DNA of 64,000 nucleotides, taken from the NCBI GenBank assembly GCA_025774935.1, contig JALGZK010000005.1:62001-126000 (forward strand). The letters run 5' to 3'. Each line of letters begins with the position of its first letter. Within the stretch, counting starts at the first letter, position 1. Both the position numbers and the translations under genes were made by a program. Shown one piece after another: positions 50,027 to 58,897 of the stretch. This stretch comes from a bacterium. GTDB taxonomy: Bacteria > Joyebacterota > Joyebacteria > Joyebacterales > Joyebacteraceae. The notes beneath the pieces are model-generated. The model was not told the DNA's origin. It did no database searches and saw nothing but the letters and a program-made list of their open reading frames with translations.

Positions 50027-50776
50027 CTAGAGCCGGTCGTAGACGAACCTCGGGATGTAGAACCGGCGCCGGTTCAGCACGGACCCGAGGACCCTCGCTC
50101 CCGCGTCGTCGAGGAGAGCGAGGCCGTGCTGGATCAGCTCGCGCTTCGTGCGGCCGGACCGGATCACGATCACGACGCCGTCGACCCTCCGCGAGAGCTG
50201 GACTCCGTCCGAGAATGGAAGGAGCGGCGGAACGTCTACGACGACGCACCCGAACCTCCTGCGTAGCTCGGCGAGGAGCGCCTCCATCCTGGAGTGTCCG
50301 AGGACGCGCGGCGGTGAAACGACGGGCCTGCCCGCCGTCAGGAGCGTCAGGCGAGGGACGCCCGACTCCTTCAGGCAGTCCGACAGCGGGACGTCCGCGA
50401 GCACGTGGTCCGACAGTCCGGGGTCCCTGGCAGTGCGGAACACGTCGTGGACGGACGGCCGTCTCAGGTTCGCGTCGACCAGAAGCGTTTCGACCTCGCC
50501 CTGAGCGGCGAGCGATGCCGCGAACTCTCGCGCGACGAGGCTGGTTCCCTCGCCCGAGATCGAGGCCGCGAACATCACGCTCCTGGAGTCGCTCTGCGGA
50601 AGCGCGAGGAAGATCTCGGAGGCGAGCATCTGGTACTCCTCGACGTCCTGGAACACAATGCGGCTCGCCGCCGGTCGCGGCATCGAGCGCCGGCCTCCGT
50701 CCCGTTCGACTCCCGGGCCGGCGCGCTTCGCGCGCTCCTGCTTGGCCCTGTCCATCGCTTTCGAGATCTTGCTCAT
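50027..50776 (-). CDS. CpsD/Wzc-like P-loop protein lacking the Walker A lysine
   Basis: The 249-residue protein aligns with the cytoplasmic kinase half of bacterial tyrosine kinases that control Wzy-dependent polymer export. Walker A' LLVDANLRRP (98-107) and Walker B VVVDVPP (178-184) are present, but the P-loop reads SGEGTSL (74-80), so Thr78 replaces the lysine that holds ATP phosphates. The C-terminus has only two tyrosines (Tyr240, Tyr246), not a Tyr-rich cluster. A pseudokinase or regulator is likely. It follows the SPOR-ATPase gene by 27 bp. Confidence 0.82.
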   Translation of the reverse strand: MSKISKAMDRAKQERAKRAGPGVERDGGRRSMPRPAASRIVFQDVEEYQMLASEIFLALPQSDSRSVMFAASISGEGTSLVAREFAASLAAQGEVETLLVDANLRRPSVHDVFRTARDPGLSDHVLADVPLSDCLKESGVPRLTLLTAGRPVVSPPRVLGHSRMEALLAELRRRFGCVVVDVPPLLPFSDGVQLSRRVDGVVIVIRSGRTKRELIQHGLALLDDAGARVLGSVLNRRRFYIPRFVYDRL

Positions 50777-50803
50777 CGTTCCCGCACACCTCTCCCAACG
50801 GAC

Positions 50804-52648
50804 TCAGTTCCTCGTCACCCAGGAGCCGCCGAAGCCGGCCTCATCGAGGACCGCGGTCATCACTCGTGCGTCGTCGAGACTGGGGAAGCCGCCGTCGAGC
50901 ACGACCCTGTACCAGACTCCCTTGTCTCCCAGATCGACTCTCACCACGCCGACTCCGAACCCGGCGTCCAGGAGGTCGGCCGCCTCGGCCCAGCCACCCT
51001 CCTCGGTGGTGACTGACTTCACGACCACCTCGTACGGCCCACCGGGGCCGACGATCGTCCCTCCGCCCGATCCCAGCGGCTGCTCGTCGCCGTTGCCTTC
51101 GCCGGACGGGAGCTCGGCTACCATCGCGCCGGCGTCATCCGGTTCGCCGCCGACCGCGTCCCGAGCGTCGATCCCCGCCTCGTCGATCGACGCCTCCTCA
51201 GCGGTCTCTGCTCCCGGCGCGACAGGCACGGACCCGCCGTCCGAATCGGCCTCCTCGGCAGCTATCCCGGGCTCGACGACGACGTCGAGCAGGCTCGACT
51301 CGCCGTTCGACACGCCCATCTCGCTCTCCGTGAACGTGGACACCGGAGTGCTCCCAGTCGGATCCGGCCACCCGAAGAGCGACGGCTTGAGGATCCGGAG
51401 CGTGAAGACGCCGGCCGCGATGACGACGACGGTCGCCGCCACGAAGGCGGTGCGCCCGCGCCGCCGCGGGGCCGGCTCCTTCCATCCCACCACGTCCCCA
51501 CCCGGCCGCTCGTCTCTCCCGACGGGAGCGACTGCCGGTCCCGCCGGTTCCGAACCCGAGCCGGTCTCCTCGTCCTCGACGAACTGGTCCGGCTCGTCCC
51601 CACTCCCGGCGGCCTCCGGCCCGGGGAGCGACGACTCCGGCGGGGTGTCGGAGAGACCGCTCGCGACGATGGGCGCGTCGGTCGGTGGGACCGGGTCGGG
51701 CACGGCCCCCGTGGCGCCCGAGGGTGCGACGCCCGAGACCGCGGTGCCCGGGGCTGCGACGCCCGAGATCCCGGCGCCCGAGACCGCGGCGCCCGGCGCG
51801 GCCGCGGCGGCTGCCACGACGGCCGACTCCTCCTCGGTGGGAACGAGCCCCTCCATGGTGTCGATCGTCTCGCGCATGAGCCTCCGGCCGATGCGCCGCT
51901 TGTTCTCGGCGTAGCCTGCGAGGAGCGCCCTGTCGCACGCGATGTTGACGACCCTCGGCACGCCCTTGGAGTACTCGTAGACCATGTCGAGCGCCCCGGA
52001 GTCGAAGATCCCCGTCTCGGCTGCGCCGGCCACCGCGAGGCGGTGGGCGATATACTCGCCGGTCTCCGACCGCGAGAGCGGAACGAGGTGGTACCGAATG
52101 CCGATCCTCTGGCGAAGCTGGCGGAGCTCCTTCAGCTCGAGCTTCTCCCTGAGCTCCGGCTGTCCGGCGAGGACGATCTGAATGCTGTTGATGCCCATCG
52201 ACCGGAGGTTCGAGAGGAGCCTCACCTCCTCCAGGACGCCGAGGCCCAGGTTCTGCGCCTCGTCGACGACGAAGACCGCGTTCCTCCCGGCTCTCGTTCG
52301 CTCGTCGAGGAAGTCCGCGATGCGGCGTCTGATCTCGATCTTCGGACCGGTGAGGGGCTCCACGCCGAGCTCGCGGGCTAGCTCCCTGAGGAGGTCCTCC
52401 TCCCCGATCGTCGTGTAGGAGAGCCTGGCCACCTTGGTCGTGACGTCGAGCCCGTCCACGAGCGCGTCGAGCAGCGTCGTCTTCCCCGTGCCGACCTCTC
52501 CGGTCAGCTGCACGAAGCTCTTCCGCTCCTCGACGCCGTACGTCAGGTGGGCGAGCGCCTCACGATGGTGCGCGCTCAGGTAGAGGTACCTGAGGTCGGT
52601 CCCCAGCTCGAACGGCTTCTCAAGCAGGTTGTAGAAGCTGGTGTACAA
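50804..52648 (-). CDS. ExeA-type AAA+ ATPase with transmembrane helix and C-terminal SPOR domain
   Basis: Residues 1-270 form an ExeA/GspA-type ATPase (MYTSFYNLLEKPFEL, Walker A GEVGTGKTT at 50-58, Walker B VFVVDEAQNL). A low-complexity Ala/Gly/Pro/Ser linker (275-395) contains short repeats. A transmembrane helix (400-419) and a periplasmic acidic region follow, ending in a SPOR-like domain (about 545-614; YEVVVKSV, GVWYRVVLDGG). SPOR domains bind glycan strands of peptidoglycan, so the protein could link ATPase activity to the cell wall near the polysaccharide exporter. Similar ATPases accompany exosortase-type EPS loci. TTG at 52648 has GGGAG upstream. Confidence 0.85.
   Translation of the reverse strand: MYTSFYNLLEKPFELGTDLRYLYLSAHHREALAHLTYGVEERKSFVQLTGEVGTGKTTLLDALVDGLDVTTKVARLSYTTIGEEDLLRELARELGVEPLTGPKIEIRRRIADFLDERTRAGRNAVFVVDEAQNLGLGVLEEVRLLSNLRSMGINSIQIVLAGQPELREKLELKELRQLRQRIGIRYHLVPLSRSETGEYIAHRLAVAGAAETGIFDSGALDMVYEYSKGVPRVVNIACDRALLAGYAENKRRIGRRLMRETIDTMEGLVPTEEESAVVAAAAAAPGAAVSGAGISGVAAPGTAVSGVAPSGATGAVPDPVPPTDAPIVASGLSDTPPESSLPGPEAAGSGDEPDQFVEDEETGSGSEPAGPAVAPVGRDERPGGDVVGWKEPAPRRRGRTAFVAATVVVIAAGVFTLRILKPSLFGWPDPTGSTPVSTFTESEMGVSNGESSLLDVVVEPGIAAEEADSDGGSVPVAPGAETAEEASIDEAGIDARDAVGGEPDDAGAMVAELPSGEGNGDEQPLGSGGGTIVGPGGPYEVVVKSVTTEEGGWAEAADLLDAGFGVGVVRVDLGDKGVWYRVVLDGGFPSLDDARVMTAVLDEAGFGGSWVTRN
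51717..51797 (-). repeat. Imperfect short tandem repeats in the ATPase linker
   Basis: Three imperfect copies of a roughly 25-nt GC-rich unit (core GCGCCCGAGACCGCGG on the plus strand) encode the Ala-Pro-Gly-Ala-Val-Ser-Gly repeats in the linker. Copy number may vary between strains by replication slippage. Confidence 0.6.
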
Positions 52649-52690
52649 ACGGCACTCCCTATTCCCCTGGCGACGCGTCCGGCGACGGTC

Positions 52691-54049
52691 TTAGCGACGA
52701 TCCGGGATCGACGCGAGCACCTTCACCCCGAGGTGCTGCTGCACCTCCTCGCGCCGCTCCAGCGAGTGGTCTGTCTTCTCCAGTCCGAAGACCAGCATGA
52801 ACCCGAACAGGATCGTGAAGATCCCGACTACGACCTTCATGTTGACGGGCTGCTCCATCGGCCTCGCGGGCACCTGCGCGCGCGACACGATGCCGACGTT
52901 CAGGAGGTTCGGATCCGTCGCGGCCGTGATGCGGAACTGCTCCCGCCTGTCCATCACGATGGCGTACAGGTCCGCGCGGATCGAGAGTTCGTGCTCGAGC
53001 ATGCGGATGATCAGCTGCTCCTCCGAAATCTCCGGATCTCGGGAACGGAGCTGGTCGAGCGTGTTCTCGATCGCGCGCTCCTCCGCCTCCCACCCCGCAA
53101 GCTCCATCCGCTGCCTCTCGACGGCCTCCACCACCTCTCGGCGGAGGACCCGCTCGAGCTCCGTTACCTCCCGTTCCAGCCGCTCGATCTCCGGGTGTCC
53201 CGGCGCGTAGCGCGCACGCGAGTCCCCGAGCTCGTTCATCAGGCCGACCAGCTGTATCTTGGCTTCCCGGACCGTCGACATCTCGTAGATGTCGGCCGTC
53301 GGCACCTCCGACACGCCCGCGTCGGACGCGAGCCAGGCCTCCACAAGAGCCAGCTGACCGCGCCGCGTCTCGATGTTCGACTGGACGGTCAGGAGCTGGT
53401 TGTTGAAGCGGTCCGAGAGCCCCATGTGCTGGTGCGCGAGGACGTCCTGCAGGAGCTGTCCGCGGTCGCCGCCGAACTCGGCGATCTGCATTGCGATCGA
53501 GTCCCTCGCCGCCCGGAGCCGGTGGGCCTGCCCGTCGAGATACGTCACTGCCTCGACGTTCAGTGCGACGTTCTTGCGGATCTCGAGATACGCGTCGAGG
53601 GACGTGTTGACCACGAGCGCGGACATCTCCGCGTCCTTGTCCCGGTAGCTGATGTCGATGATGTCGGACTCCGGCAGAGCCTTCGCCTGGATCCTTCGCT
53701 CGAGCGAGTGGATCGCGAGCGAGCGGTCGCCCTCCCCGGCGAGTCCGAGGCGGTCGACGACGAGCTCCGCGACCGCCGAGCTCATGATGATCTGGAGCTC
53801 CGAGTTCACGACCTCGGATCGTCTCAGGACGGCGCGCGACTCGGTGGGCATGGCGTAGGCCTGTGCGACTCTCTTGATGAGCACCCTCGCCTTCGCCTGG
53901 TAGGTCGGGACGACGGTCATCGTACCGTACACGACGATCACGAGACCGACGACAAGGAGCGTGATGAGCACCGTCTTCCGCTTGAAGACCACGTACGCGA
54001 TGTCCCGAAGGAGCATCGGCTCAGGTGCGTATCCACGCTTCTCTGCCAC
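52691..54049 (-). CDS. Wzz/GumC-type chain-length determinant protein
   Basis: Two transmembrane helices (about 25-47 and 408-428) flank a long periplasmic coiled coil (170-370), the layout of polysaccharide co-polymerases. The proline-containing segment PARPMEQPVNMKVVVGI before the second helix is the classical Wzz signature. There is no fused kinase domain; the CpsD-like protein two genes on would be its partner. GTG at 54049 follows AAGGAAGG. The 452-residue length suits the GumC/Wzz class. Confidence 0.88.
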   Translation of the reverse strand: MAEKRGYAPEPMLLRDIAYVVFKRKTVLITLLVVGLVIVVYGTMTVVPTYQAKARVLIKRVAQAYAMPTESRAVLRRSEVVNSELQIIMSSAVAELVVDRLGLAGEGDRSLAIHSLERRIQAKALPESDIIDISYRDKDAEMSALVVNTSLDAYLEIRKNVALNVEAVTYLDGQAHRLRAARDSIAMQIAEFGGDRGQLLQDVLAHQHMGLSDRFNNQLLTVQSNIETRRGQLALVEAWLASDAGVSEVPTADIYEMSTVREAKIQLVGLMNELGDSRARYAPGHPEIERLEREVTELERVLRREVVEAVERQRMELAGWEAEERAIENTLDQLRSRDPEISEEQLIIRMLEHELSIRADLYAIVMDRREQFRITAATDPNLLNVGIVSRAQVPARPMEQPVNMKVVVGIFTILFGFMLVFGLEKTDHSLERREEVQQHLGVKVLASIPDRR

Positions 54050-54083
54050 GTTCGAGTCCTTCCTTCTCAGCCCACGGGCCGCC

Positions 54084-54842
54084 CTACTGCCACCACCACT
54101 TGATGCCGTCCGCCCTGAGAGCGATCTCGTACCCGTACAGCCAGAACTGCATCACAGGCAGCGTCTGATCGAAGAAGAGGTAGACGAACTCGTCGACCTT
54201 CCCGATGAACGACTTCGGCACGTAGACGACGTCGTTCCGGACGACCGACATGTCGCTCGAGAAGTCACTGCCGGTGAAGATGTCATCCATGTTGACCCTG
54301 AACGCCGTCGGCTCCTCCACGCCCACGGTCCGCACGAGCATGACGCTGCTCGGCTTCCCGCTCGACAGGAGTCCGCCCGCCTGGGAGAGGGCGCCCGTCA
54401 CCGTCATCCCGGCGTCCAGTTCGAACCTCCCCGGGTGCTTGACCTCGCCGATGACGTACACCCACTGCTTCGCGATCGAGCGGATGGCGACCGACGCCGT
54501 CGGGTCGAGGAGGTACTCGCCCATGTACTCCTCGATCTCCGCGCCGAGCTCGGTGACCGTCTTGCCCGAGGCGACGATCTCGCCGCTCATCGGGAGGGTC
54601 ACTGTGCCGCTCGGCGTAATCGGCGCGTCGTAGCTCAGTGCGTCGTCGGTCAGGAACACGACGCGCAGCTCGTCGCCGATCTGGAGTCTGTAGACCGGCG
54701 GCTTGAGCGCGACCGGCTCCTGCACGGGCTCGAATACGTCCGTCTCCGGAACGTCGCCGCCCGTCGAGGCGCAGCCACCCGCGACGAGGCAGACAGCCAC
54801 CCCGACAAGAACGAGTCTCGCCCTCGCCGTCATCGGTGCCAT
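54084..54842 (-). CDS. Outer-membrane polysaccharide export lipoprotein, Wza-like
   Basis: From ATG 54842 (GGGGG about 9 nt upstream) the 252-residue protein has a lipoprotein signal with lipobox LVAGGC at Cys24. The Poly_export domain follows (PPVYRLQIGDELRVVF, about 45-120), then a SLBB domain (WVYVIGEVKHPGRFELD). The C-terminal helix region resembles the Wza membrane-spanning helix and ends in the aromatic WWWQ. It forms the outer-membrane exit channel. It is the first gene of the exopolysaccharide operon behind a sigma-54 promoter. Confidence 0.87.
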   Translation of the reverse strand: MAPMTARARLVLVGVAVCLVAGGCASTGGDVPETDVFEPVQEPVALKPPVYRLQIGDELRVVFLTDDALSYDAPITPSGTVTLPMSGEIVASGKTVTELGAEIEEYMGEYLLDPTASVAIRSIAKQWVYVIGEVKHPGRFELDAGMTVTGALSQAGGLLSSGKPSSVMLVRTVGVEEPTAFRVNMDDIFTGSDFSSDMSVVRNDVVYVPKSFIGKVDEFVYLFFDQTLPVMQFWLYGYEIALRADGIKWWWQ

Positions 54843-54915
54843 GCTGGAAGTCCCCCTATCGTGCACCCCGGCGCCTCCCCGCCGTCCGCGGGGCGCGCCT
54901 CGAAGCCGTTCTAAA

Positions 54916-54930
54916 GCATAACTCGTGCCA
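54916..54930 (-). promoter_or_regulatory. Sigma-54 (-24/-12) promoter of the exopolysaccharide operon
   Basis: TGGCAC (54925-54930, minus strand), five bases, then ATGC (54916-54919): one mismatch to TGGCAC-N5-TTGC, with the essential GG and GC at the required spacing. The predicted start is near 54905, about 63 nt before wza. The rest of the gap to 55069 shows no other clear site. Confidence 0.68.
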
Positions 54931-55069
54931 CAGTTACGGCGTCTGAGGGCCGTCTCGAGGGCGCGGAAGGCCCCCGGAGCCCCCTGAGCGGGCATTCAGC
55001 CCTGACGGGGTCCCCAGGAGGTCTCGCGACCGTCCGCTTGGCTTCTCGAAACTTGCGAAACGCGGTTCG

Positions 55070-56683
55070 TCAGGGCCCCCCGACGGTCGCGGGCGGCTCG
55101 TCCGGGCCGTCCCCGGCGCGGTCCGTCAACCGGTACAGGACGACGCGGACCCCGTCGAAGCTCGTCTCGTCGACTCTCGCGAAGTGCTCGTCAAGGTAAG
55201 CGGGAACGCGGCGCGAGGGATCTGCGTGCCAGAGCCTCGAGTCCAGGAACCACAGCCGCCCGTGCCCCTCGATCGCGGCCTCGATCCGCTCCGAGACCTC
55301 CTCGTCGCTCGCTGCCTGTCCCGGGTAGATGATGAAGAGCCGGGCGTCTCCCCGGAAGTAGAAGTCGAACACGTCACCGACGACAGGCGCCAGCACGAGG
55401 TCCCGCGGCCGCTCCTGTTCCTCGACGTACCGGACGGCTCCCCGGACGTCTTCCCTTCGGTAGTCGCCGCGGTAGTAGTAGTTCGCAAGCGATACTACAC
55501 AGAATAAGGCGATGAACCCGCAAAGCAAAGCCGACCCGACCCGCCGCAGTGTCGCGATCCCGGCTGCGGCAAGGACTACGAGGACCGGCAGCATCACCGA
55601 GACGTACCGCGGGTTGAAGGGCTTGATGTTCAGGATCGCGAGAGCGGCCGCGCCCGCGAGTGGCACCACGACGATGGCCAGCACGAGCGCCAGCGCCCTC
55701 CGCGAGAGCAGCAGCCGCTTGAGACCGAGGAGCCACGCGGCGGCCATGAGAAGCACCGCCGGGGCGACGAGCGCGGCGTGGCGCATGTATGCGCGCGCCG
55801 GCGAGCCCGTGTGAAGCTCGCGGAGGCTCGGTCCGAACGTGCTGCCGTAGGCCATCGTGACGAACGAGTAAGGTATGGCCGCGGGCGTGAACGTCGTCTC
55901 CCCTCGCAGCAGCTCTTCATCGTCGGCCTGCGACGGCACGACCACCCGCTCGGAGACGCTGTCGACCCGAGCCCACCGGAGGAGCCCCAGGGCGGAGGGG
56001 ATGAGAAGCACGACGACCGCGGCGTACGCCGCGAGCCACTTGCCGAGGAGGCGGCGGTCCGAGAACGCCCGTCCGGCCGCGAACACGTTGTGCGCAACGA
56101 TGAGGAAGCCCGTGGCGAAGTTCGACAGGATCCCGAGGACGACGGTCACGACGTAGAGTGTCCAGCCGCGTCCGTTCTTCTCCACGATGCGCCAGACGAC
56201 GAGCGTCGAGACGGCCGAGAAGAACATCACGAACGAGTAATTCCTGAGCTCCTGCGAGTACCAGACCGAGAACGGCGAGATCGCAATGAGGAGCGCGGCG
56301 ATGAGCCCCGTCGTCCTGTCGACGAGCTCTTTGCCGAGGAGATAGGTCACCGGGATGAGTGCGACCCCGGCGACCGCCGACATGGACCTGAGGGCCACCT
56401 CGCCTGTCGAGACTCGCCCGACCAGGTTCACGAGGGTCGCGTGGAGCGGGCCCTGTATGTTCCAGAAGATCTCCGGGAAGCTCAGGCTCTCCCCAAGATC
56501 TGCCGCGTGGATGGTGAGGAGCTCGTCGATCCAGAAGCTCTGATACCCGAGGCGGTAGAAGCGGAGCACGGCGCCCACGGCGATGATGGCGAGGAGGACC
56601 CACGGGAAGCCGGTCCCCCGAGGTGCGACGGGCGCGGCCTGGCGGCCGCTCGGCTCGTGTGTAGCTGTCAATTCCTGACCCAC
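55070..56683 (-). CDS. GT39/ArnT-like membrane glycosyltransferase
   Basis: The 537-residue protein has about ten transmembrane segments and the GT-C hallmark Asp-Glu in the first periplasmic loop (YQSFWIDELLTIHAA, about 48-62). Relatives transfer sugars from polyprenyl phosphate to proteins or lipid A. A periplasmic C-terminal domain (about 430-537) follows. The GTG start has GGAG 8 nt upstream. It has its own promoter, between the initiating sugar transferase and the exopolysaccharide operon. Protein O-glycosylation and lipid A modification are both possible. Confidence 0.83.
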   Translation of the reverse strand: MGQELTATHEPSGRQAAPVAPRGTGFPWVLLAIIAVGAVLRFYRLGYQSFWIDELLTIHAADLGESLSFPEIFWNIQGPLHATLVNLVGRVSTGEVALRSMSAVAGVALIPVTYLLGKELVDRTTGLIAALLIAISPFSVWYSQELRNYSFVMFFSAVSTLVVWRIVEKNGRGWTLYVVTVVLGILSNFATGFLIVAHNVFAAGRAFSDRRLLGKWLAAYAAVVVLLIPSALGLLRWARVDSVSERVVVPSQADDEELLRGETTFTPAAIPYSFVTMAYGSTFGPSLRELHTGSPARAYMRHAALVAPAVLLMAAAWLLGLKRLLLSRRALALVLAIVVVPLAGAAALAILNIKPFNPRYVSVMLPVLVVLAAAGIATLRRVGSALLCGFIALFCVVSLANYYYRGDYRREDVRGAVRYVEEQERPRDLVLAPVVGDVFDFYFRGDARLFIIYPGQAASDEEVSERIEAAIEGHGRLWFLDSRLWHADPSRRVPAYLDEHFARVDETSFDGVRVVLYRLTDRAGDGPDEPPATVGGP

Positions 56684-56908: not shown

Positions 56909-57601
56909 CTAGTAGGCCCCCTTCCGGAGAACCACCGCCGGTAGCGTTCTGGCAAGGATCTTGACGTCGAGCGCGAGCGACTGCTTGCGGATGTACTCGA
57001 GATCGAGCCGAACCCACTCCGTGAAGCCGATGTGGTTCCTGCCGCTCACCTGCCACAGGCAGGTGATCCCAGGACAGACCGAGAGCCTCTCCCGCTGCCA
57101 CGACTCGTAGTTCGCGACCTCCGCGGGAAGCGGAGGACGCGGTCCGACCAGGCTCATCTCGCCTCGGAGGACGTTCACGAGCTGCGGGAGCTCATCGAGG
57201 CTGGTGCGTCTGAGGAACCTGCCGAGCTTCGTGATGCGCGGGTCCTCGCCGATCTTGAAGACCGGACCCTCCAGCTCGTTCAGATGCATCAGACTGTCCT
57301 TCAGGTCCTCGGCGTTCTCGATCATCGAGCGGAACTTGTAGAACCAGAATTCGTTCCCGTCCTTCCCGACCCGGCGCTGCTTGAACATCACCGGACCGGG
57401 CGAGTCGAGCTTGACGAGTACCGAGAGGAGAAGGAAGGCAGGTGAGAGAGCAACAAGACCGAACGCACTCGCCGCGGCATCGAAGGGTCGCTTCAGCCAG
57501 CGTCTGTAGGTTTCGCCTCGCAGGATCCCCTCCCGCTCCGCGGACGTGGCGGCGATCTCTTCGATCGTCCCGTATCCGAATCTCTCGTCGACGAAGTACA
57601 A
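56909..57601 (-). CDS. Undecaprenyl-phosphate sugar-1-phosphate transferase (WbaP/PssY type)
   Basis: This enzyme starts polysaccharide assembly by moving a sugar-1-phosphate from a UDP-sugar to undecaprenyl phosphate. The 230 residues are the minimal form: a cytoplasmic lead (1-38), one re-entrant membrane helix (42-65) and the catalytic domain with [31 protein letters not shown] (in parts), the Asp-Glu pair in TSLDELPQL and [10 protein letters not shown]. The start is TTG at 57601; an in-frame stop lies three codons upstream, so no longer form is possible. It has its own promoter, leader and flanking terminators, unlike the polymer genes. Confidence 0.9.
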
Positions 57602-57633
57602 GCCTCGTCACCCCGCTCTGCCGCCGGGCCCAC

Positions 57634-57671
57634 ACAAAAACAGCCGGGCTCGGCCTCAGGCCGCACCCGGC
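57634..57671 (-). terminator. Intrinsic terminator in the leader of the sugar transferase
   Basis: A two-part stem (57643-57648 with 57666-57671, and 57651-57655 with 57659-57663) is followed on the minus strand by TGTTTTTGTG (57633-57642). It ends 33 nt before the TTG start, after the promoter, so transcripts must read through it to express the gene. Confidence 0.72.
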
Positions 57672-57862
57672 ACCTCCCGTCCGCACCTGTTCTCCGCCAA
57701 GGGTGGGCCTGAATTCACAGCAATTGCTGAGCATACCGGTGCGTCCGGATGCGTCAGCGCACGCCATGTCAAGGCACTCTAGGAATCGAAGTCAACCCTT
57801 AGCAATGGGGCTATGCGAGTCCTTTCGGTGCGGATTCACGCTGTCTGGTCACTCACAGGGTT
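57672..57862 (-). promoter_or_regulatory. Structured leader RNA upstream of the sugar transferase, possible riboswitch or attenuated sRNA
   Basis: About 190 nt separate the predicted transcript start from the terminator, with no convincing reading frame. The RNA can form an outer stem AACCCT/AGGGTT (57857-57862 with about 57792-57797) enclosing TGTGAGT/ACTCGCA and a GAAA-containing loop, then a CAGCAATTGCTG palindrome (57718-57729) and CCGG/CCGG stems. A loose likeness to the c-di-GMP-I (GEMM) element is seen (ACCGAAAGGAC, CGCATAGCC), but conserved positions differ and I do not claim it. The 342-nt gap 57602-57943 holds only this leader, its promoter and its terminator. Confidence 0.5.
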
Positions 57863-57868
57863 AATCGT

Positions 57869-57897
57869 ATTGTATCACAAGCTTTCGCTCGTGTCAA
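57869..57897 (-). promoter_or_regulatory. Near-consensus sigma-70 promoter of the sugar transferase leader
   Basis: TTGACA (57892-57897) with a 17-nt spacer to TACAAT (57869-57874) on the minus strand. This is the strongest sigma-70 site in the window, in a locally AT-richer stretch just after the stop of the upstream gene. The predicted start is near 57862. Confidence 0.8.
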
Positions 57898-57943: not shown

Positions 57944-58897
57944 TCAGGCGCTGTCCACTCCTCTCCGAATCGCTGCCCAGAGCAGCGGGAAGAGGAGCTC
58001 GTGCCTGCCCCTAAGTGCAATGCCCATGCCAGATTGTGCCGTCGGCCGCCCGACCACGTTCAGCATCGCCCTGTAGGGCTCGTTCATGTCCATGCCGACG
58101 GCCGTGAAGCCGCCTGCGGCGCGGCCCAGGTTCCGGGCCACGGTGAGCGCCTTCAGGAATACCTCCGGGAGGACGACTGCCGACCCGACGTTGACCACCA
58201 CGCCGCCCCCGAGTCCGGCGACCACCTCCGCCAGGATCCTGAAGTCGGTGAGGCTCGTCTCCCCGATCGCCCCTCCGTCAGTGGCTGGATGCTGGTGGAT
58301 TATGTCGGTTCCGAGTGCGACGTGCACGGTGAGGGGGATTCCGAGCTCGTTTGCCCGCGCCGTGATGCTCGCGTCGCGGTGAGGCGCCTCTAACTCGGCG
58401 AGCTTCCGACCGAGCCCTTCGCCAAACCCGAGCCCGCCGTCCCGCGCTTCGACGACCGCGGCGTTCATGTGGTCCGCCGTCTCAGCGCACATGCCGAACG
58501 TTCCGTCCTCGAGCCCGGCCGCAACGTCTTCGGAGGTCCTCCCCCACATCGCGAGCTCGAAGTCGTGGATCGCCCCGGCGCCGTTCGTCGCGAGCGCGGT
58601 CACCACCTTCCTCTCCATGAGATCGATCAGGAGCCTCGACAGCCCGCACTTCACGAGGTGCGCCCCGAACATCACCAGCACCGCCCTCCCGCCCGCCGCC
58701 GCGCCCGCGATCGCGTCGACCGCCGATCTGAGATCGGTCCCCGCGAAGAGCCTGGGCACGACCCCCATGAACGCGTCCACCTCATCGCCGGGATCGTACG
58801 GGCGAACAAGGTCCTCGACCCGCACGGTCCCGCCGCGCTCGTCGATCGAGACCCGTCGCACACCCGACAGGTCCGCCTGCGCGAATCGCGACGCCAT
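57944..58897 (-). CDS. Deoxyhypusine synthase-like family protein
   Basis: The 317-residue protein looks like the bacterial deoxyhypusine-synthase-like group: an NAD-binding-type core with VLVMFGAHLVKCGLSRLL, ATNGAGAIHDFELA, GMCAETADHMN and HQHPATDGGAIGETSL. In eukaryotes and archaea the enzyme modifies eIF5A; bacterial relatives often act in polyamine metabolism or are uncharacterised. I did not locate the catalytic lysine with certainty. It ends the lipopolysaccharide-core style operon, 9 bp after the DUF3108 gene. Confidence 0.58.
   Translation of the reverse strand: MASRFAQADLSGVRRVSIDERGGTVRVEDLVRPYDPGDEVDAFMGVVPRLFAGTDLRSAVDAIAGAAAGGRAVLVMFGAHLVKCGLSRLLIDLMERKVVTALATNGAGAIHDFELAMWGRTSEDVAAGLEDGTFGMCAETADHMNAAVVEARDGGLGFGEGLGRKLAELEAPHRDASITARANELGIPLTVHVALGTDIIHQHPATDGGAIGETSLTDFRILAEVVAGLGGGVVVNVGSAVVLPEVFLKALTVARNLGRAAGGFTAVGMDMNEPYRAMLNVVGRPTAQSGMGIALRGRHELLFPLLWAAIRRGVDSA

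Follow-up and report, generated by a model that had tools for sequence, protein, structure and literature searches.

A conserved leader RNA predicted to attenuate, in cis, the transcription of an exopolysaccharide operon in Candidatus Effluviviacota

The stretch of DNA analysed here (64,000 nt in all; hereafter the window) comes from a member of the phylum Candidatus Effluviviacota (taxid 3232315), which was described from seep sediments in a paper that makes no mention of riboswitches (PMC11323493). On the minus strand it carries a gene for a polyprenyl-phosphate sugar-1-phosphate transferase, with further exopolysaccharide (EPS) genes downstream (Table 1). The preliminary description of this DNA had named the controlled gene as the initiating sugar transferase. 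The gene, which is the first of the EPS pathway and the committed step, encodes a short protein that matches PF02397 (E = 8.9e-66). The protein scores 291.8 bits against TIGR03025, slightly below the cut-off of 295.55; the match comprises the C-terminal catalytic half alone, without the N-terminal membrane domain. Its start codon is TTG or GTG at all 20 loci compared, and never ATG. Directly upstream of the leader described below, and in the same orientation, is a gene (57944-58897, minus strand) for a GSU2086 family protein (NF052581, 383.6 bits, over the cut-off) with a distant likeness to deoxyhypusine synthase, which stays before the leader wherever the contig extends. Where contigs allow, the conserved order is DUF3108, GSU2086 family, leader, sugar transferase, PMT, export, Wzz, ATPase and kinase. 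A second sugar transferase of the host (G000:C32:18733-19290; 44% identical over the shared part) is longer and lacks such a leader, because the leader's core1 occurs once in the genome even when up to 3 mismatches are allowed.

Table 1. Features of the leader and of the neighbouring genes, in window coordinates.
Feature	Position	Strand	Basis
Promoter: TTGACA, 17-nt spacer, TACAAT, extended -10 TG	57869..57897	-	11/12 matches
Approximate 5'UTR, from inferred start site to core1; sequence variable	57827..57862	-	start site inferred from -10 position; identity 0.40
Core1 GAAAGGACTCGCATAGCCCCATTGCTAAGGG, nearly invariant in the phylum	57796..57826	-	identity 0.89
GAAAGGA, Shine-Dalgarno-like, 5 nt before AUA	57820..57826	-	sequence
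Putative leader ORF AUA-GCC-CCA-UUG-CUA-AGG-GUU-GAC-UUC-GAU-UCC-UAG, 11 codons, non-canonical start inferred	57779..57814	-	ORF length and synonymous bias
Strand A TTGCTAAGGGT: 5' side of P1 and codons 4-7 of the putative ORF	57795..57805	-	pairing analysis
Variable arm inside P1	57704..57795	-	helices keep pairing via compensatory changes within genera
Core2 / strand B ACCCTTGGCGG: 3' side of P1 or 5' side of the predicted antiterminator	57694..57704	-	P1 97.1% of cells paired; antiterminator 93.1%
Terminator hairpin GCCGGGTGCGGCCTGAGGCCGAGCCCGGC	57643..57671	-	-24.2 kcal/mol
Terminator 5' strand (strand C) GCCGGGTGC	57663-57671	-	able to pair with core2
U-rich tract TGTTTTTG after the terminator hairpin	57635..57642	-	sequence
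Polyprenyl-phosphate sugar-1-phosphate transferase (Bac_transf), TTG start	56909..57601	-	PF02397 E 8.9e-66
Downstream EPS genes: PMT_2-type transferase, Poly_export/SLBB, Wzz, XrtA-associated ATPase, tyrosine kinase	50027..56683	-	profile matches; order kept in relatives

The leader, about 220 nt long, has the layout of an attenuator: a promoter, the leader itself and an intrinsic terminator before the gene, with no other promoter-like site found in between. The near-consensus sigma-70 promoter noted in the preliminary description holds up. It is the sole sigma-70-like site between 57000 and 58500 (1 found vs. 0.1 expected from shuffles), its pattern is single in the genome and present in 20/20 leaders, and its spacer, AAAGCTTGTGATA, is also conserved. 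The foldable RNA described there is likewise found: the 232-nt leader folds better than shuffled sequences (z = −2.46; 2 of 200 as good). The terminator had been placed 33 nt before the TTG start, a distance that applies from the end of the U-tract; from the end of the hairpin it is 41 nt, and relatives have 35-107 nt between terminator and start. The tract that follows the hairpin is U-rich in most homologues and weak in L016. Given this short gap, and since no promoter-like site was found in the window between terminator and TTG, expression of the sugar transferase probably requires read-through. Spacing along the leader is kept, with core1 starting 38-47 nt past the -10 element, an arm of 85-94 nt and a linker of 20-30 nt.

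By DNA search the leader was recovered from 19 of 20 available genomes of the phylum (host included), and a search with the core pattern returned the same 19, including 13/13 of those with completeness of 90% or more and contamination of 5% or less. The resulting 20 homologous leaders each lie directly before the sugar transferase wherever the locus is covered, one copy per genome, with the exception of one incomplete bin. This bin (G012, 57% complete) has two leaders (L005 and L021, on G012:C291 and G012:C330) and two sugar transferases, one of them close to the window's genus; it is probably a mixed bin. The sole leader-free genome (73% complete) lacks the transferase ortholog and carries only a 43% identical paralog, so the leader occurs wherever the ortholog occurs. 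Across 84,980 species, matches to the core1 pattern were confined to 17 stretches bearing the same leader; the core pattern had no match in viral contigs, and a covariance model of the leader had none in 270 genomes outside the phylum. A cmscan with all 4227 Rfam families gave no credible match to the leader (E ≤ 10) or to 18 homologous loci (E ≤ 5), the weak microRNA and lncRNA matches being due to chance. Thus the earlier suspicion that the element is unclassified agrees with the Infernal/Rfam check, and the predicted leader RNA probably constitutes a family in no Rfam class, phylum-specific as far as scanned.

Mean pairwise identity among ten representatives is high in the promoter (0.77), core1 (0.89), core2 (0.87) and terminator (0.73), and low in the 5'UTR (0.40), arm (0.42), linker (0.19) and post-terminator spacer (0.40). 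Such patchy conservation argues against simple recent descent. Within the phylum core1 reads GAAAGGACTCRYATMGCNNNAYTGCTAAGGGY and core2 reads RCCCTTGGCAG, both nearly invariant on either side of a diverged arm, and the end of core1 (TGCTAAGGGY; TGCTAAGGG in strand A) can pair across the arm with core2 in a helix of 9-11 bp, P1. The domain closed by P1 is more stable than dinucleotide shuffles in 20/20 leaders (mean z = −4.07). The helices of the arm differ among genera, and within one genus a single pair shows A-U, G-C and G-U.

In P1 and the terminator stem together, 98.2% of cells are in standard pairs vs. 35-57% when the strands are slid, and three pairs show changes on both sides. None of 500 shuffles reached the covariation score or the count of cells with both-sided changes, and the numbers of pairs and of pair types were not above all 500. 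L008 was omitted from the pair counts, its terminator being misplaced in the MAFFT alignment. Of 11 pairs in P1, 6 never vary and are hence uninformative; covariation for the P1/antiterminator pairing itself is thin because most such pairs never vary.

The predicted antiterminator joins core2 (GCRCCC-UU-GGC) to the 5' strand of the terminator (GCC-GGGYGC). Here 93.1% of cells are paired vs. 29-41% when slid (11 of 500 shuffles as high), the R/Y position is never A-C and changes from A-U to G-C within the host's genus, and in 18/20 leaders the duplex of core2 with strand C is stronger than with shuffled strand C (fraction <0.03). As predicted pairings, P1/terminator and antiterminator are mutually exclusive, and both are conserved. 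In every leader the antiterminator is less stable than P1 and terminator together, by 2.5-19.7 kcal/mol; the default state would therefore be off, and a trigger has to come into play while transcription is under way. In the switch that we infer, direction and in-cell use of the antiterminator included, pairing of strands A and B in P1 would leave strand C free, the terminator would form and transcription would stop, and occupation of strand A would let strand B pair with strand C, giving read-through into the sugar transferase. We regard it as very probable, from the layout and these conserved pairings, that the leader acts as a cis-acting transcription attenuator of the EPS operon.

What might occupy strand A is suggested by core1, whose GAAAGGA is complementary to the usual anti-Shine-Dalgarno tail, UCCUUUC. 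The putative ORF that follows starts with AUA in 15 leaders and AUC in 5, never AUG, and its frame reads I/M-A-x-L-L-R-V/A across strand A. It is exactly 11 codons long in 13/20 leaders, whose stops comprise TAG, TGA and TAA; in three further leaders its length is 8 or 12 codons, and in five (L009, L018-L021) it extends well beyond codon 12. Shared stops recur in frame 2 too, so the shared ORF stop may partly mirror sequence conservation. Synonymous changes make up 68% of the codon differences within codons 1-7 vs. 22% with permuted columns (p=0.002, by a test that ignores the clustering of conserved columns and phylogeny). The CUA on strand A is invariant, at a frequency of 0.8 per thousand codons in ten neighbourhood ORFs. 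Codon 3 has an invariant third base and variable first two, which is the wrong pattern for coding, and the position of the TTG/CTG Leu codon is explicable by P1 pairing as well. The putative codons include Leu and Arg, and no amino-acid gene is among the identified genes of the operon. A canonical upstream start was considered and rejected, such starts being present in some leaders only and not conserved. The 8-mer AAGGACTC has two copies in the window, one in core1 and one immediately upstream of the start codon, GTG, of Wzz, whose ribosome-binding region GGAAGGACTCGAAC-GTG (54049-54061, minus strand) has AAGGACTCG in common with core1.

According to this proposal, a ribosome loading or stalling over the GAAAGGA-AUA/AUC frame and the rare CUA would mask strand A and turn the operon on. 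We put the ribosome as trigger at slightly less than an even chance. The explanation as a whole, that of a phylum-conserved, cis-acting attenuator of the EPS operon whose strand A is most likely held by a ribosome, we judge to be about evenly poised between right and wrong. A more specific and rather speculative version would be a leader-peptide attenuator in which a poor AUA/AUC start and an invariant rare CUA couple the committed step of EPS synthesis to translation capacity, so that slime would be made once a ribosome starts or stalls on the leader; this we think distinctly less likely than its opposite.

Other triggers would act on the same strands. A ligand riboswitch, in which core1 and P1 form the aptamer for an EPS-linked metabolite or signal and the ligand decides between P1 and antiterminator, would fit the succession of promoter, structured domain closed by P1 and terminator, the invariant unpaired residues of core1, the structured arm and the placement of the leader outside every Rfam family. 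However, nucleotide conservation does not go beyond the switching strands and the 5' box, and the arm, in which one would look for the aptamer core, is 42% identical and changes its fold among genera; moreover, the leader occurs once per genome before one gene, whereas many riboswitch classes precede several operons. We therefore retain from the attenuating-riboswitch layout of the preliminary description the conserved leader, promoter, terminator and attenuator placement, and not the metabolite aptamer, given the variable arm. Ribosome-mediated attenuation is favored over a ligand riboswitch, which we consider improbable, because core1 reads as a ribosome-binding site with a short frame. A T-box was also rejected: the GGGTG that precedes the terminator is reminiscent of the T-box sequence, yet the leader lacks UGGN and has no Rfam match. 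By eye, core1 does not contain a consensus RNA polymerase pause (G-10 Y-1 G+1).

To a protein-controlled attenuator, in which an RNA-binding protein recognizes core1, perhaps as a hairpin (P0), and prevents P1, we assign a similarly low probability. Core1 alone folds into P0 (GACUC-RYA-UAGC-NNNAYU-GCUA-A-GGGUU) in 15/20 leaders, P0 would hide strand A and is mutually exclusive with P1, and core1 is more invariant than pairing demands; yet L006 and L012-L015 have a disrupted P0, which led us to reject it as a universal core1 element (broken in 5/20 leaders), and no known antiterminator protein was found in the host. The BglG/LicT system resembles the leader in having AAAGGA followed by a hairpin of ~30 nt that is exclusive with the off-state pairing, but a CAT_RBD (BglG/LicT) protein was found in 0/20 genomes (controls positive), the hairpin is lost in 5/20 leaders, and it competes here with P1 rather than with the terminator. 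An ANTAR protein is present in 1/20 genomes (G013), and the host is without one. The least probable reading, in our view, is the stand-alone sRNA of the preliminary description (~220-230 nt), acting in trans with the sugar transferase expressed by constitutive leakage. Its own strong, conserved promoter and strong terminator would suit such an RNA, and the invariant unpaired box could serve as a seed region, but the complementarity of core2 and terminator would be left unexplained, as would the position of every copy directly before the same ortholog where the locus is covered, and its absence solely where that ortholog is missing.

Ribosome-mediated attenuation has precedents in the trp, his and leu leader-peptide attenuators, where, as proposed here, a short ORF overlaps one strand of alternative hairpins with a terminator/antiterminator outcome; a rare Leu codon (CUA) within the putative overlap would be a further likeness. 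Those systems control amino-acid genes, whereas this leader, known from sequence, precedes an EPS sugar transferase, has a putative AUA/AUC start and shows no run of a single amino acid. Polysaccharide operons have conserved leader elements that affect elongation, namely epsC/EAR (RF01735) and JUMPstart/ops (PMC2864571). The leader shares their position and has no Rfam match; it would act via its adjacent terminator and not by processive antitermination, as far as can be read from the DNA. An RfaH/LoaP-like NusG paralog was not seen in the 13 phylum genomes examined, which never have more than one NusG (one in 11, none found in two). The wcaG motif (RF01761), a candidate riboswitch of marine and cyanophage sequences (PMC2864571), also precedes EPS genes, and no Rfam match links it to the leader.

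The preliminary description had seen a loose resemblance to GEMM-I (RF01051), which is not supported. The likeness is that of a terminator leader before a biofilm-type gene, with a superficial GCANAGC similarity; neither the leader (E ≤ 10) nor the 18 homologous loci (E ≤ 5) matched the c-di-GMP-I model, though this model scores 65 bits in the same phylum. That match is a c-di-GMP-I riboswitch at G013:C42:826-899 (L061); G013 is alone in the phylum in carrying this and the ANTAR protein (G013:C154:3770-3925), which are either a recent acquisition or contamination.

We found no prior description of the leader in the literature searched, of which coverage was incomplete. The kind of mechanism is known; what is new is the RNA family, the gene that it probably controls and the possible AUA/AUC start. 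In a little-known, uncultured phylum that is widespread in seep sediments, a regulatory RNA family not described before marks every found copy of this EPS operon. Should the ribosome prove to be the trigger, leader-peptide attenuation, a mechanism of amino-acid and resistance genes, would reach surface polysaccharide as well, and slime formation in these bacteria would be linked to the state of translation.
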